A stretch of 64,000 nt of DNA. Source: Nitrosopumilaceae archaeon (GTDB taxonomy: Archaea; Thermoproteota; Nitrososphaeria; Nitrososphaerales; Nitrosopumilaceae). Of the stretch, positions 6,184 to 16,664 are shown piece by piece. How positions within the stretch are numbered: the first letter of the stretch is position 1; the number at the start of each line of letters is the position of its first letter. The translations under genes were made by a program, and so were the position numbers. The notes under the pieces were generated by a model. It did no database searches, was not told the DNA's origin, and saw nothing but the letters and a program-made list of their open reading frames with translations. The stretch lies in NCBI GenBank assembly GCA_022823825.1, contig JAJEHG010000045.1, positions 1-64,000 on the forward strand. Reading direction: 5' to 3'.

Positions 6184-6576
6184 GAGGCTGCTGTACGTGC
6201 CTTTGATTTATGTGCTTTTAGTGGCGGGAACGGCCCGCGCCCCCGCCCGCGCCCTTGCCGGCTCCCTTCCTCCACCCATGCGCCGTCCTGCAGCGGGCGC
6301 CACCGCCACCGGCTCCCTCCGCCACACGACGTCCCGGCCCGCATTCGTGCGATCGTTATGCGCGGGACGCATCGGCGTCCACGTCCATCCTCCCCCCCCC
6401 TGCCAATCCCAACACCATGATCATTTTCTATGATTTCCAAGATATGCGGCGTTACGGTGTGATTCTTTGGCATATTTTGACCTCACTGCCATAACGTGTA
6501 ACTACACTCCACACGAAATGAATTTTTTTTATGCCGCATCTTCCAAATTCCGCCCTGAAAATCGCCGTTTTTTTCA

Positions 6577-6620
6577 GGTACTGTTGCAAATTCGTGACCC
6601 ATTGGGCGGCTAGGCACGGC
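6577..6620 (+). repeat. left terminal inverted repeat
   Basis: GGTACTGTTGCAAATTCGTGACCCATTGGGCGGCTAGGCACGGC; matches the reverse complement of 10604-10647 with one mismatch. Confidence 0.95.
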
Positions 6621-6681
6621 GTGATCTTCTCTCAAATGGCAGGCACACCCGTTGTTAAATACCGACATCAGGAACGAGGTT

Positions 6682-6930
6682 ATGGACAGGCCGCCGCGCA
6701 GACCGAGACGGCGTAGCAGTGCCAAGACGCGCGACCGCTTGGTCGCGCTTGCGACGCTGATGCTGACAGCCAACATGTACTTTTCCATGGCCGCGGTCTA
6801 TCCGGAATACTCGTTCGATCCGGAGTATGACGACCACGGCGGGCTGGCCATGGTCGTGGCTACGATGATGCTGGCGGGGTGGATAATACTCTGCATCTCA
6901 AGGGCTCAGCGCGGCGAGAGCATCATGTAG
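6682..6930 (+). CDS. small membrane protein inside the mobile element
   Basis: MDRPPRRPRRR... then two hydrophobic segments; convergent with the transposase gene. Confidence 0.45.
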   Translation: MDRPPRRPRRRSSAKTRDRLVALATLMLTANMYFSMAAVYPEYSFDPEYDDHGGLAMVVATMMLAGWIILCISRAQRGESIM

Positions 6931-6934
6931 CGGG

Positions 6935-7999
6935 TCAGACCCGCTGGTCGGTGGCAATCAGGTAGAGGCTGCTGTTCTGAATGATTGTTTTCCACTTGTT
7001 GGCCCCCTCGGTGTGTATGCCTGCCGCCTCTGCCGGGGTCTTGGCGATTGCGTCATGCTCGCGGCAGTGGTTGTAGTGAACCTTCATGCCCTTGAACACC
7101 GGGGTTCCCATGTGGCCAAGTCCGCGAAAGGTCTTCTCGCGGTCGCGGATCGTACCGTTCAGGCGCTCCATCTTGTTGTTCGACGGGTGGTAGTTGCCCC
7201 CGCACGGCTTGCCGCTCGGGCCCTTGCGCTTGCTACGTATGCCCGCATCACACTTGTGGTACGTGCCCCTGCCGAACACCTTGCGGGCCGCCTTCTGGTA
7301 CGCGTGTAGTTTGTCGGTGATGAACACGGTGGGGGCCTTGCCCGTGTGCTCCTTGCTTGCACGCAGGAGATCGTCCGCGTTGTGCCTGAACTTGTTGTCT
7401 GCCAAGTCGGACGCTATCCAGTATCGAGTGTCGTCGTCCATTGACGCGAACAGGTAATGCTGTTTGCCTGCGACCTTGACCCACACCTCGTCGGCCCTGT
7501 ACCACTTGCCGACATCGGGCGTGATGCTGTCGGTAAACAGGGACGCGACCTTTGAGTAGCGTTCAACCCATCTGTATATCGTACCGTTTGAAACACTGAT
7601 GCCCCGCACCTTGAGCAGGTCGGATATGGCCCTAGTGGACATGCCCGCGTGGAACATGTGCACCGCCTCGCTTACGATAGCGGAATCAAACTGCCTGTAC
7701 CGGAACCCGAAGTTTGCAGAAAAAACCTTCTTGCAACGGTAGCACTTGTACAACTGTACGTCCCCGGACTTGTTGCGGCGCACGCCCTTCTTGCCGATAC
7801 GCTCCGACCTACAGTATTTGCAGAACCTGATCGCATCGTGGGACTCGATCTGCGTGCTCATGCGGCACGCCTCCCAAAAATTATAAGATGGATGGTTGAA
7901 ACCGGATTCAAGGACTCGGACAACGCCAGTCTCGTCATTGGGAGTGTGGCTCCCTCTGACTTTGTTTTCTTCATCGTCTTTCTTGCCGGTTTCATACAA
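6935..7999 (-). CDS. IS6/IS240-type DDE transposase with N-terminal zinc ribbon
   Basis: FCKYCRSERIGKKG...YKCYRCKKVF zinc ribbon; WYRADEVWVKVAGKQHYLFASMDDDTRYW, FITDKLHAYQKA and NNKMERLNGTIRDREKTFRG DDE signatures. Start is TTG 7999 or ATG 7861. Confidence 0.9.
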   Translation of the reverse strand: MYETGKKDDEENKVRGSHTPNDETGVVRVLESGFNHPSYNFWEACRMSTQIESHDAIRFCKYCRSERIGKKGVRRNKSGDVQLYKCYRCKKVFSANFGFRYRQFDSAIVSEAVHMFHAGMSTRAISDLLKVRGISVSNGTIYRWVERYSKVASLFTDSITPDVGKWYRADEVWVKVAGKQHYLFASMDDDTRYWIASDLADNKFRHNADDLLRASKEHTGKAPTVFITDKLHAYQKAARKVFGRGTYHKCDAGIRSKRKGPSGKPCGGNYHPSNNKMERLNGTIRDREKTFRGLGHMGTPVFKGMKVHYNHCREHDAIAKTPAEAAGIHTEGANKWKTIIQNSSLYLIATDQRV

Positions 8000-8095
8000 T
8001 AGGTTATCTGGTAGGTCATATAAAGGTTAGGTTATATGTTAGGTTATGCATCTATACGATAGGTTATTATTATGACAAGTCACGCAATAGGTTAT
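8000..8095. promoter_or_regulatory. iteron cluster, TAGGTTAT x5 plus one degenerate copy
   Basis: TAGGTTAT at 8000-8007, 8028-8035, 8040-8047, 8060-8067 and 8088-8095; TAGGTCAT at 8012-8019; lies between divergent transposase and AbrB-like ORFs. Confidence 0.75.
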
Positions 8096-8264
8096 GGTTA
8101 AGACAAACTTGGTGCTGGCAAACAAAAGCGATTCCTTGAGAACGACAGTGCCGTCCCACATTGTCAAGCAGTTCAAGTTGAAGCAGGGCGATCAGTTGGA
8201 CTGGGAACTAATCGCAGAGGCGGACACTCTGAAAATCATAATAACCCCCGCACGAGAGGTATAA
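8094..8264 (+). CDS. AbrB/SpoVT (MazE-like) small DNA-binding protein
   Basis: Not in the ORF track (<60 aa). Translation MVKTNLVLANKSDSLRTTVPSHIVKQFKLKQGDQLDWELIAEADTLKIIITPAREV matches the swapped-hairpin AbrB pattern (SLRTTVPxxIVxxFxLxxGDxLxWxL). Confidence 0.7.
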   Translation: MVKTNLVLANKSDSLRTTVPSHIVKQFKLKQGDQLDWELIAEADTLKIIITPAREV

Positions 8265-8315
8265 GCAAGTTGGTGCAGGCGGGGGCGACATGTTGCAATG
8301 AGCGTCACATATGTA

Positions 8316-8346
8316 CGAGAACTAGCCGAGAACTAGCCGAGAACTC
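8316..8346. repeat. short tandem direct repeat (CGAGAACTAGC, about 2.7 copies)
   Basis: CGAGAACTAGC CGAGAACTAGC CGAGAACTC read directly. Confidence 0.8.
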
Positions 8347-8493
8347 CCCTCGACACGGGGGCTTTAATTTTTCGCAATCTAAATGCATCTGGCGTAGATG
8401 TTTGTTTGGTGTTGAAAACAAGACACCAATTCCAAACACGGTTGAATCAGTTTGGATTTTCCACAGAAGTAAACAAAAGGGGGTCAATTCCCC

Positions 8494-9480
8494 ATGATGT
8501 CGAAAAATACATCATTGAATAAAGCAAATGCCGCCAAAGAAGATGAATTTTACACGGAGCTCTCCGACATTGAGAACGAACTTAAGCATTACAAGGGACA
8601 CTTCAAAGGCAAGACAGTCCTTTGCAACTGTGACGATCCAAGAATCAGCAACTTTTTTCATTATTTTTCACACAACTTTAAAAAACTGAAACTGAAAAAA
8701 CTCATTGCAACCTGCTACAAAAGCCAGCAGGTTAACCTGTTTAGCCGATACGATTCTGAATATGCCATCTATCAGGAGTACGACGGGGACGAGGATAGAA
8801 TACCAGACCCCCGCAAGATCAAAGTGGGTAATTTGGAAAATGATGGGGATTTCCGAAGCGAGGAGTGCATAGAGATCCTAAAGAAGGCCGACATAGTGGT
8901 GACCAACCCCCCGTTCTCGCTGTTCAGGGAATACGTCTTACAGTTGATCAAATACAAGAAACGCTTCCTCATCATAGGAAACCAAAACGCTGCGACCTAC
9001 AAGGAGATATTTCCGTTGATCAAAGACAATAAGATCTGGTTTGGATACCATGTGGGGGACATGGCCTTCCGGGTTCCCAGCCACTTTGAACCGAGGACTA
9101 CCAGATACTGGGAGGACGAGAATGGCCAAAAATGGAGGAGTCTTGGCACGATATGCTGGTTTACCAACTTGGACGTCAAAAAACGCCATGAACGTCTCAT
9201 ACTGCACAAGGCATACCAGCCGCGGGAATACCCAACTTATGACGGTTACAATGCCATAGACGTGGGCAGGGTGGCAGACATACCGGCCAACTATAACGGA
9301 ATGATGGGGGTGCCAATCACGTTCCTGAGCAAGTACAACCCAGAGCAGTTTGAAATCGTCGGCCTTGACAGGTACATTGAAGACAGTCCCGCACGCGGCA
9401 GAAGGTTCAAACTCAAGGGAAGGGAGACATATGCCCGCATCATAATCAAGCACAAGAAGGTGGTGGCAGCACACAAATGA
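8494..9480 (+). CDS. EcoRI-type adenine-specific DNA methyltransferase
   Basis: NPPF catalytic motif in ADIVVTNPPFSLFREY; EDEFYTELSDIENEL...GKTVLCNCDDPRISNFFHYF typical of the EcoRI methylase family. Confidence 0.88.
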   Translation: MMSKNTSLNKANAAKEDEFYTELSDIENELKHYKGHFKGKTVLCNCDDPRISNFFHYFSHNFKKLKLKKLIATCYKSQQVNLFSRYDSEYAIYQEYDGDEDRIPDPRKIKVGNLENDGDFRSEECIEILKKADIVVTNPPFSLFREYVLQLIKYKKRFLIIGNQNAATYKEIFPLIKDNKIWFGYHVGDMAFRVPSHFEPRTTRYWEDENGQKWRSLGTICWFTNLDVKKRHERLILHKAYQPREYPTYDGYNAIDVGRVADIPANYNGMMGVPITFLSKYNPEQFEIVGLDRYIEDSPARGRRFKLKGRETYARIIIKHKKVVAAHK

Positions 9481-10562
9481 AAATAGAGCTCAAGAAAATC
9501 ACGGTAAGGAAGCTGTCAGAGGGATATGAGGATAACGAGGAAGAGGGCGTTGTGGCTTATGGGGGCAGGCTGGACGTGCGCCCTCCCTACCAGCGGGAGT
9601 TCATCTACAAGGAGGCCCAACGGAACGCAGTGATTGACACGATTAACAAATGCTTTCCCCTCAACGTCATGTATTGGGCCGTACGCAACGACGGAGGATT
9701 TGAGATTATAGACGGACAACAAAGGACCATCTCCATATGCCAGTATGTGATGGGTGACTTCTCGCACAATGCAAGGTACTTTCACAGCCTTCAGGACGAT
9801 GAACAAAACAAAATCCTCAACTATGAACTGATGGTCTACTGGTGCAGTGGGACGGACAGCGAGAAGCTGAAGTGGTTTAAGACGATCAATATAGCTGGGG
9901 AGGAACTCTCTGCGCAGGAACTCAGGAACGCCGTGTACCACGGGTCATGGGTCTCCGATGCCAAGCGTTACTTCAGCAGGCGTGGGTGCGCGGCCTATGC
10001 AATCGCCAGTGACTACGTAAGCGGCTCTCCCATCCGTCAAAAATATCTTGAAACCGCCATAAAATGGATCTCAGGAGACGACATAGAAGGATACATGTCC
10101 AAACACCATCACGACCAAAACGCCAATGAATTGTGGATTTATTTTCAGACCGTGATCAATTGGATCAAGGCTACGTTCAAGGTCAAGAGAAAAAAAGAGA
10201 TGGAAAACGTCGACTGGGGTTCCCTGTACAACGAATACAAGGATGCACAACTGAACACGGACAAGATCGAGGAAGAGACAAAGAAACTGATAGATGACGA
10301 TGATGTCACCAAGAAGGCTGGTATCTATCCCTACATCTTGACGCGGGACGAAAAACACCTTTCCATCCGCGCGTTCACAGACAGCATGAAGCGAAAAGTC
10401 TACGAGAAGCAGGATGGAAAATGCGCAGTGTGTGGAGAACGGTTCGACATATCAGACATGGAAGCGGATCACATCACGCCTTGGCACGATGGCGGCAAGA
10501 CGACGGAGGAAAACTGCCAGTTGCTTTGTAAGGAAGACAACCGTAGAAAGGCGGGGAAATAG
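9477..10562 (+). CDS. DUF262 (GmrS/ParB-like) plus C-terminal HNH nuclease, putative restriction endonuclease
   Basis: N-terminal PYQREFIYKEAQRNAVIDTI...FEIIDGQQRTISICQ (DUF262); C-terminal CAVCGERFDISDMEADHITPWHDGGKTTEENCQLLCKEDNRRK (HNH); ATGA overlap with the methylase stop. Confidence 0.88.
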   Translation: MKIELKKITVRKLSEGYEDNEEEGVVAYGGRLDVRPPYQREFIYKEAQRNAVIDTINKCFPLNVMYWAVRNDGGFEIIDGQQRTISICQYVMGDFSHNARYFHSLQDDEQNKILNYELMVYWCSGTDSEKLKWFKTINIAGEELSAQELRNAVYHGSWVSDAKRYFSRRGCAAYAIASDYVSGSPIRQKYLETAIKWISGDDIEGYMSKHHHDQNANELWIYFQTVINWIKATFKVKRKKEMENVDWGSLYNEYKDAQLNTDKIEEETKKLIDDDDVTKKAGIYPYILTRDEKHLSIRAFTDSMKRKVYEKQDGKCAVCGERFDISDMEADHITPWHDGGKTTEENCQLLCKEDNRRKAGK

Positions 10563-10603
10563 GAAATCTGTCCGAACTGGTTTCTCATGTCTCAACCCGA
10601 CCA

Positions 10604-10647
10604 GCCGTGCCTAGCCACCCAATGGGTCACGAATTTGCAACAGTACC
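10604..10647 (-). repeat. right terminal inverted repeat
   Basis: Reverse complement is GGTACTGTTGCAAATTCGTGACCCATTGGGTGGCTAGGCACGGC. Confidence 0.95.
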
Positions 10648-10661
10648 TTTTTTCATAACAG

Positions 10662-13444: not shown

Positions 13445-13991
13445 GCCGTACCACGCGCCGGATTCTATAAAACATGTCCGTTTTCTGGTTCTGTTGAGAA
13501 TTCGTTAGATCCTACCTGTGTGCCTTACGCCCGATCTGCCCATTTTCCCAGAGCGCCTCTGCCCTTGAAGTCCGTGCATGCCTAGTGGCTGGTTAAGTGG
13601 CGCAAAGGCTAACCATGCCAACGTCGGGAAACACGATTCACTACGCAAGACTTCTGCCGAGGCCGCGGGCGTCGCCACGCAGGGCCTCGGCAGGCGCAAG
13701 ACGATCGTATGGAACTTCAGCCTGCGTCAGTTCTCAACCGATCCGAGGGTCTGATTCCTATTTTTGTATCTAGTTCACGAATTGGAAGCAAAGCCGGCAT
13801 CGATGTGGCTAAAAAGGAATTCCGTGACCCGGCGTTGTGCTTGCGATGTTGAGACGCGCCCGGGGCATTTCTGCGGGCAGCATTTCGGCTCAATTCGGGG
13901 AGGTGACATGCATGCCATGCCTTCTCTGGAGGCATGTGCGTGCGGCCGAGGCCTGTGGTGTAAGATGGCCGCCGCTGGGAGGGAGACTCTG

Positions 13992-16664
13992 ATGTCTCTG
14001 CGGCAGTCCCGCGCGGGGGCATGGCTGATACTGGCACTGGTGGCAGTGGCGGGCCTCGGGGCGGCGGCATACGGCACGGCCTCGCTTTCTGGCGTGGCTT
14101 TGGAGACTGCAGGCGGTAGCTACCTGGCAGGCGTCACCGCCGCCCCCGACCTTCCAGATCCGGCTGCGATGCTTGACCATGCCTCGAGCTTGGCATTCGG
14201 ATCCCTTGCGCAGAACGCGTACGCGCAGTTACCCGACGTCGGACCTGCTCTAACCTCTGCAGAGTACTCTGCCGGCACGCTTGAGCTCGCGTTCGACGAG
14301 GGGCTGGACTCTGCCGAGACAGACTATGCCAAGATCCACGTGCGGGATGCAGGCGACTCGACAGGCGGCGTGGACCTCGACGGCGCCGTCTCCAAGACGC
14401 ATGGCAACTCTACAATAACGGTGACATTTAACGACGCCGATCAAACCACCATCGCCGGCATGGCAGATCCGACCCTCGACATCGAGGCGGACGCGGTAAG
14501 CAACAGCCAGGGCACTGGGAACGCGGAGGCAACAGACCGGGAGATAACATTACCGTTTGTCACAACGTGGACCATCGTCGCTGAAAACGAGTCGGTGACG
14601 TTTCCCGGCAGCGGCACCTACGACATCGACTGGGGCGACGGCACCGTCGAAAATGGTGTCACCGGTGCGGGGCGCCACCTCTACGCGTCTGCCGACACCT
14701 ACACAGTCAAGGTTACGGGCGGCCTGACCGGATTCTCCCTGCTCGATTCCCATGACGCGGGCAATCTAGAGTCAGTGGAGCAGTGGGGTGACATCGAGTG
14801 GAATACGATGAACAACATGTTCCGTTCTGCTTTCAACATGGACTACAACGCAAAAGACGTCCCGGATCTCTCCGGCGTGACCGACATGTCCTACGCGTTC
14901 TTTAAAGCCACCTCATTCAACGGCACCATCTCGGGGTGGGACACCTCTAGCGTGACCGACATGTCCTACATGTTCTTTGGCGCTGCCTCCTTTAACGGCG
15001 ACATCTCGGGGTGGGACACCTCCGCCGTGACCAATATGTCCTACACGTTCTCCGAAGCCTCTTCCTTCAACCAGGACATCAACACCGACGGCAACTCGTG
15101 GGACACCTCCGCCGTGACCGACATGTCCAACATGTTCTCCGATGCCACCTCCTTTAACGGCGACATCTCGGGGTGGGACACCTCCGCCGTGACCGACATG
15201 TCTCGCATGTTTTTTGATGCCGCCTCCTTTAACGGCGACATCTCGGGGTGGGACACCTCTAGCGTGACCGACATGTCCTATATGTTCACTGATGCTCTCA
15301 TCTTCAACCAAAACATCAACACCAACGGCAACTCGTGGGACACCTCCGCCGTGACCAATATGCTTGGTATGTTCGGCGGCGCCACCTCATTCAACGGCAC
15401 CATCTCGGGGTGGGACACCTCTAGCGTGACCGACATGTCCTACATGTTCTTTGGCGCCACCTCATTTGACCGGGACATCAACACCCGCGGCAACTCGTGG
15501 GACACCTCCGCCGTGACCGACATGTCCAACATGTTCTTTGGCGCCACCTCATTCAACGGCACCATCTCGGGGTGGGACACCTCTAGCGTGACCGACATGT
15601 CCTACATGTTCTTTAGCGCCACCTCCTTTGACCGGGACATCGGCGCCAACGGCAACTCGTGGGACACCTCCGCCGTGACCGACATGTCCAACATGTTCTT
15701 TGGCGCCTCCTCCTTTAACAGCGACATCTCAGATTGGGACGTCAGGGCCGCGACCGACATGACCGATATGTTTACCGGCGCCTCCTCCTTCGACCAGAAC
15801 CTAGGAAAGTGGTACGTGACGCCGGGCGGGTTTGACGTACTTGTTGCAGCCCTGCCGGGGGCAGTCGGAAACGTATCGGCCCAGAACAGCTTCCTTGACG
15901 GCCAGAACCCTGTCTATACCATAGTGACAAACACCGCGGGAGACCACTTTGAGATGGACTCCGGCGAGCTTTCCATGGCCGCGGCAGGGGTAGGCAAGTA
16001 TGTGGTGGAGATCGGCGCCACCGGAAGCCTCTTTGGGAGCGGCAACGCACGAGTGGTACAGGTGTCGGTCTTGGGCGCCAACCCGACGCCGAAATCTAAT
16101 ACGGAGCTCGACCAGACAGTCAACCCGACGCCGAAATCTAATGCGGGGCTCGACCAGACAGTCAACCTCGGTGACATGGTTACACTTGATGGCGCGGGCT
16201 CGGAGGGCTCAGGCAACATGACCTACCTGTGGAACCAGAGCGCGGGAACCCCCGTAGCGCTTTCTAATACAACGGATCCGCGGCCAACGTTTATTGCGCC
16301 GCAGTCCCCGGACATACTTGCCTTCACCCTGTTAGTCACCGGCACGGGGGAGCAGGCAGACTCTGACACCGTGACGATCACGGTCATGAACGTAAGCGAA
16401 TCCAATTCCACAAACCAGCGGCCCGTCATAGAACTCAACGGAACTTCGTCTGACAGGATATTACTTGGCACTTCGCCGAGCGGGGCACAGTGCTACGACG
16501 AAGAAGACGGCCACATCGACCCAGTCACAACGGGCAACCTTGATGTCAACAAGCCCGGCGTATACAACGTCACCTACGTCTGCACGGACAGCGACGGGCT
16601 TTCGGCATCTGTAAACCAGACAGTCACGGTGGTTGGGGACGGATCCCGTATCTGCCGAGACTGA
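13992..16664 (+). CDS. secreted BspA/DUF285 repeat surface protein with PKD-like and DUF5011-like modules
   Basis: Signal-like N terminus (ORF opens at 13764); many [24 protein letters not shown] repeats; C-terminal PKD-like [16 protein letters not shown] and DUF5011-like [19 protein letters not shown]. Confidence 0.85.

Follow-up and report, generated by a model that had tools for sequence, protein, structure and literature searches.

The methylase–nuclease pair and its transposon

In the window, a 64,000-nucleotide stretch of a contig from a Nitrosopumilaceae archaeon, a methylase gene (M) is followed directly by a nuclease gene (R) (Table 1). Both open reading frames are intact and run along the plus strand, with the stop of M and the start of R sharing the bases ATGA at 9477–9480; an earlier note on this DNA had given the same coordinates and overlap, and both were correct when we reread the open reading frames. 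M matched the Pfam family EcoRI_methylase (PF13651) over its full length (E = 3.8e-132; 441 bits against a curated cut-off of 26.4) and was 51% identical to the methylase adjoining a real EcoRI nuclease on the E. coli plasmid pU90-3. R matched GmrSD_N (DUF262; 1.2e-17) and HNH (PF01844; 1e-13), and the Pfam scan of R gave no DUF1524, EcoRI-fold, ResIII helicase or PD-(D/E)XK match. The scan bore out the earlier description of R as a DUF262 domain with an IDGQQR motif joined to an HNH domain rather than to DUF1524 or an EcoRI-fold enzyme.

Table 1 Features of the pair and of the transposon that carries it (window coordinates)
Feature	Position	Strand	Basis or remark
8-bp target-site duplication TTTTTTCA, left copy	6569–6576	.	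Identical 8-mer abuts both inverted repeats
Terminal inverted repeat, left, GGTACTGTTGCAAATTCGTGACCC...	6577–6620	+	98% complementary to 10604–10647
IS6-like DDE transposase, 354 aa	6935–7999	−	NCBIfam transpos_IS6, Pfam DDE_Tnp_IS240; relatives in the genus
56-aa ORF, AbrB/SpoVT-type DNA-binding-like, possible regulator	8094–8264	+	Likeness by eye
M, EcoRI-family N6-adenine DNA methyltransferase, 328 aa	8494–9480	+	Pfam EcoRI_methylase, PADLOC MTase_II
Catalytic NPPF motif (M residues 138–141)	8905–8916	+	Invariant in 56 relatives
Variable cassette (M residues ~185–221), putative target-recognition domain (TRD)	9046–9156	+	Swapped among Ms; modelled as a strand-rich hairpin
R, DUF262 (GmrSD_N)-HNH nuclease, 361 aa	9477–10562	+	Pfam GmrSD_N and HNH; PADLOC REase_II
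IDGQQR nucleotide-binding motif (R residues 78–83)	9708–9725	+	DGQQR fully conserved across 55 relatives
HNH nuclease domain (R residues 316–358; D331, H332, N346, N355)	10422–10550	+	Pfam HNH 1e-13; best fold match Gme HNH endonuclease 4h9d
Terminal inverted repeat, right	10604–10647	−	Pairs with the left repeat
8-bp target-site duplication TTTTTTCA, right copy	10648–10655	.	Same 8-mer as left

Across 55 relatives of R, D79-G80-Q81-Q82-R83 and H332 were invariant and D331, N346 and N355 almost invariant, and the retention of these IDGQQR and HNH residues indicates that the R gene is intact. A confident AlphaFold model of R (pLDDT 89.9) had a ParB/sulfiredoxin-like fold in its N-terminal part, helices in the middle and HNH at the end. 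The fold matches of the N-terminal part (BrxU, ParB and sulfiredoxin) were weak, and PDB relatives found by sequence matched R in the HNH part only. A fold search with M returned generic Rossmann methylases and no solved relative of M.EcoRI. Both proteins matched PADLOC models over their full length, R to REase_II PDLC03418 (3.8e-131) and M to MTase_II PDLC03297 (3e-129). Because both models belong to type II restriction–modification (R-M) systems, the pair as such is already catalogued.

The pair is part of the cargo of a 4,071-bp transposon (6577–10647). Its inverted repeats are 44 nt long, open with GGTACTGTTGCAAA and enclose the IS6-like transposase, the small AbrB-like ORF, M and R; genome-wide, the 23-nt core of the repeat is confined to these two sites, with 0 expected in shuffles. 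The transposase matched NCBIfam transpos_IS6 (3.1e-32) with 111.9 bits, just below the cut-off of 125, and Pfam DDE_Tnp_IS240 (2e-9). An 8-bp target duplication is typical of IS6, and the element combines such a duplication with terminal inverted repeats and an IS6-type DDE transposase, as IS6 family members do, with the transposase score remaining below the cut-off. Similar terminal repeats were also seen near some relatives of this transposase within the genus. The insertion point lies immediately upstream of the EF-1alpha gene (10692), and the GC content is 0.44–0.51 across the cargo versus 0.57–0.62 outside. Only 2 of the 398 genomes searched in the phylum carry the pair. In the second carrier, a genome of the same genus (G010), R is 72% identical, intact and overlaps the end of M by 4 bases; the contig stops just short of the M cassette, so that the comparison covers the part beyond it. 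The transposon boundaries, the low GC and the rare occurrence fit a recent horizontal arrival. Elsewhere in the window, a large ORF (13764–16664) in which the pattern WDTSxVTxMxxMF recurs many times resembles BspA-like surface proteins.

Pairing of M and R across genomes, plasmids and viruses

When 84,980 genomes, together with viral contigs, were scanned for relatives of R, 160 loci were obtained. Wherever a locus had room for a neighbour, M adjoined R (77/77 loci in genomes, 78/78 in viral contigs), and R without M was not found among these loci. Chance pairing of the two genes is ruled out by this adjacency. M came first in 150 of the 155 loci, and the modal spacing was a 4-base overlap. 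M does occur without R, either adjoining EcoRI or with no recognised nuclease. The pair spans bacteria, archaea and phages, and was seen on complete plasmids of Bacillota, Pseudomonadota, Actinomycetota and Bacteroidota. The earlier note had proposed a non-canonical R-M pair and had named the failure of the two families to co-occur elsewhere as a refutation; they co-occur universally, and together with the full-length PADLOC matches to MTase_II and REase_II this supports the proposal well. Strain-level variation in E. coli yielded one partial match among 5,426 genomes.

Variations on the two-gene arrangement were also observed. At L135, L169 and the Variovorax locus L272, two tandem EcoRI-family Ms with differing cassettes lie upstream of a single R. 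Three Bacteroidales loci, L037, L042 and L043 (2994–3947), have a Fic-family-like gene (309 aa) between M and R, and a different gene, of 287 aa, occupies this place in L040 and L044. On two Enterococcus plasmids (L273 and L274), the optrA resistance gene is inserted between M and R. In the Mycobacterium phages PQ362672.1, PQ362668.1 and ON970624.1, the annotated methylase stands beside the first 46 residues of R only, and these phages look as if M had been retained and R lost. No natural M-R fusion was found among the loci collected. Fusions of another kind were seen: one protein on a Lactiplantibacillus plantarum plasmid (L017:2180–4282) combines a C5-cytosine methylase with an EcoRI-family methylase whose cassette is window-like, and a long ORF (~737 codons; L235:3935–6145) with an EcoRI-family methylase domain and no R nearby is apparently a further one.

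Cassette exchange in M and the conservation of R

Alignment of the Ms showed a conserved N-terminal part containing NPPF, a hypervariable block of ~40 residues, with invariant W-x-G on one side and W-x-T-N on the other, and a C-terminal part that is again conserved. The block is bordered by the positions of W183, C223 and H235 of M.EcoRI, residues reported to lie close to the DNA and to its flipped base. Among the Ms linked to DUF262-HNH nucleases we distinguished 26 unrelated cassette types, and at a core identity of 0.50–0.80 the cassettes were unrelated in 70–91% of pairs. In contrast, 12 distinct Ms linked to EcoRI nucleases, from Enterobacteria, Leuconostoc, Staphylococcus, Rhodococcus and phages, all had one cassette type (66/66 pairs) with cores 54–83% identical. 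This constancy beside EcoRI nucleases indicates that the cassette behaves as a TRD; the EcoRI-linked Ms, however, fall into what is essentially a single clade, so that as a control for cassette-equals-specificity they amount effectively to one lineage. The cassette of the window M differs from the EcoRI-linked type. Judged from these alignments, the cassette probably sets the target sequence of M. The observed/expected ratio of GAATTC in loci grouped by cassette was 0.50 for the EcoRI-linked group, 0.56 for one unrelated group and 0.99 for the group of the window; other palindromes were lower, and the targets of the cassettes did not emerge from palindrome avoidance.

The nuclease does not follow these exchanges. 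In 137 non-redundant M-R pairs, the identities of the M core and R were correlated (0.68), whereas the partial correlation of R with the cassette, given the M core, was 0.007; a weak correlation with the cassette (r ~0.07) was seen for R windows 1–40 and 113–128. Among 144 R pairs of >75% identity, the cassettes were unrelated in 98 and related in 38. On the R tree (136 tips), at least 81 cassette changes were counted, versus 92.8 ± 2.6 when the labels were shuffled and a possible minimum of 25, and in close pairs the frequency of R differences was 0.181 where the cassette had changed versus 0.187 where it had not. The co-evolution of nuclease and methylase recognition elements that is expected of Type II systems was thus not seen; R varied independently of the cassette.

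Individual loci illustrate this more clearly. L041, L042 and L043 carry three cassettes with Rs differing at 4–6 of 360 residues, and the Rs of L064 and L116 differ at 4 residues beside unrelated cassettes. The Rs of L040 and L044 differ at 11 of 366 residues, and the L040 cassette is EcoRI-like (0.85) whereas that of L044 is unrelated. At the DNA level, both L064/L116 and L040/L044 have ~40% identity over the cassette and 75–100% on either side, and L040/L044 have a further short variable stretch near the end of M. The sharpest mismatches come from metagenome-assembled genomes and one viral contig, in which single chimeras are possible; isolates agree in a less extreme form (L145/L271: R 81% identical, cassette 0.13), and the 23 isolate loci include 8 cassette types. 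The trend is general, isolates included. What is new here is this comparative point, that M swaps its cassette and R does not follow, and the PADLOC entries, being catalogue models, are silent on cassette swapping and on the proposed targeting by M. The independence of R from the M cassette and the transposon carrying the pair are two larger points that the earlier reading had missed.

Possible modes of action and relation to known systems

We propose that the EcoRI-family adenine methylase, through its swappable TRD cassette, would mark its own sites, and that the DUF262-HNH nuclease, with little or no site specificity of its own, would be directed by M to the unmethylated copies. M and R probably act as a complex, in which, on the model of GmrSD, BrxU and SspE (PMC10952713, PMC4619093), DUF262 may serve as an NTP-dependent switch and HNH may do the cutting. 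The entire R-M system would be carried here as cargo of the IS6-like transposon. That R prefers no site by itself and owes its specificity to M, as nucleases of Type III (Mod/Res) and Type I do to theirs, seems to us the likelier account, held with some reserve. If R read its own site, exchanging the M cassette with no change in R would expose host sites, so that an R targeted by M is the more economical arrangement; the loci with tandem Ms and a single R fit this. Some observations are less favourable. R has no helicase, unlike the classical Type I and III nucleases, which counts against direction by M, as does the weak correlation of R windows 1–40 and 113–128 with the cassette, and only one residue of M was conserved with DUF262-HNH but absent with EcoRI, giving no interface signal.

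An ordinary Type II pair, in which R itself reads the site of M as EcoRI does, is unlikely in our judgement. It would imply either that the variable segment of M is not the recognition element or that R is retargeted by a few substitutions. PADLOC files the R family as REase_II, R was never found without M, some HNH enzymes are site-specific on their own, and two R windows correlate weakly with the cassette; all these points favour such a pair. However, R proteins only 4–6 residues apart stand beside three unrelated cassettes, the near-identical Rs of L040 and L044 accompany one EcoRI-like cassette and one unrelated, and the cassette is constant wherever the nuclease is EcoRI. If the cassettes read different sites, a self-reading R would cut its own host.

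We consider it improbable that R is instead gated by modification, sensing the N6-methyladenine made by M in any context, and that this mark turns it off (or on), much as phosphorothioate controls SspE. Such an R would need no site specificity, and the indifference to the cassette that this predicts is what we observed; in addition, sensitivity to DNA modification is a property of the DUF262 proteins GmrSD, BrxU and SspE (PMC10952713). The known DUF262-DUF1524 enzymes, however, target modified cytosine or phosphorothioate rather than N6-methyladenine, and R carries HNH in place of DUF1524. Because M methylates the host DNA, an R activated by the mark would be toxic to its own cell, whereas an R inhibited by it would need to sense sparse marks from a distance. 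The modification-dependent, type IV-like gate that the earlier note had offered as an option received no positive support, and under it a constitutive M would be self-destructive. Least probable of all, and in our view very doubtful, is that the pair is inactive or domesticated transposon cargo in the window archaeon, kept through recent arrival only. The recent boundaries, the low GC and the two carriers among 398 genomes would agree with this, but neither reading frame is broken and no catalytic motif is missing, and the same-genus carrier G010 retains an intact, coupled R at 72% identity.

By gene content, an adjacent and co-occurring methylase and nuclease as in Type II, this is an R-M pair, and by its methylase it belongs to the EcoRI family. 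The EcoRI system (Type IIP) has a methylase of the same Pfam family, ~51% identical, but its nuclease is an EcoRI-fold PD-(D/E)XK enzyme whereas R is DUF262-HNH with HNH fold matches, its gene order is R then M rather than M then R, and the window M bears a different recognition cassette. The nuclease accordingly excludes the pair from the EcoRI-type Type II systems, and so does the lack of the co-evolution that two readers acting independently should show. With GmrSD, BrxU and SspE, R shares the N-terminal DUF262 with IDGQQR and the ParB/sulfiredoxin-like fold, but R is far shorter (361 aa versus ~580 for the BrxU structure) and ends in HNH PF01844 where they end in DUF1524. Cleavage of modified DNA with no methylase is a type IV trait, whereas R is always paired with a cognate methylase; as DUF1524 is absent and the methylase always present, the pair is not a type IV GmrSD.

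A closer parallel is with Type III systems, whose Mod proteins have conserved ends and a swapped central TRD within a conserved methylase frame (PMC8125046). There too a single conserved nuclease serves methylases with a swapped centre, and M precedes R. The differences are that R has neither a ResIII helicase nor PD-(D/E)XK and that M is of the EcoRI family rather than a Mod. We infer that the pair may work like Type III, and withhold that filing because the Res helicase is missing from R. Our literature search found no work linking DUF262 to the EcoRI family, or DUF262 to type II restriction and GAATTC, and for DUF262 with adenine-specific methylases it returned only work on BREX and Campylobacter methylomes.

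It is about an even call whether the pair represents an unrecognised R-M class, in which a shared DUF262-HNH effector would take its guidance from an exchangeable EcoRI-type methylase and a swap of ~40 aa would retarget methylation and cleavage together. Such a class would answer to Type III in compact form, with two genes and no helicase, and transposons, plasmids and phages would have spread it among bacteria and archaea. If M directs R, an EcoRI-family methylase would cross the line between Type II, with two independent readers, and Types I and III, with one shared reader, and the pair would amount to a small nuclease system of two genes that could be retargeted by exchanging ~40 methylase residues. 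Direction by M also yields a direct prediction for more than 100 sequenced loci. It would further account for the way in which a GmrSD-like domain, of a kind familiar from defence that depends on modification, came to be turned against unmodified DNA. A comparable turn is known for LlaJI, a relative of McrBC that became an R-M system, in which a modification-dependent nuclease family is used with methylases against unmodified DNA (PMC12707154); unlike the pair described here, LlaJI uses McrB/McrC GTPase machinery and its own B3 DNA-reading domain, and it has no homology to M and R.
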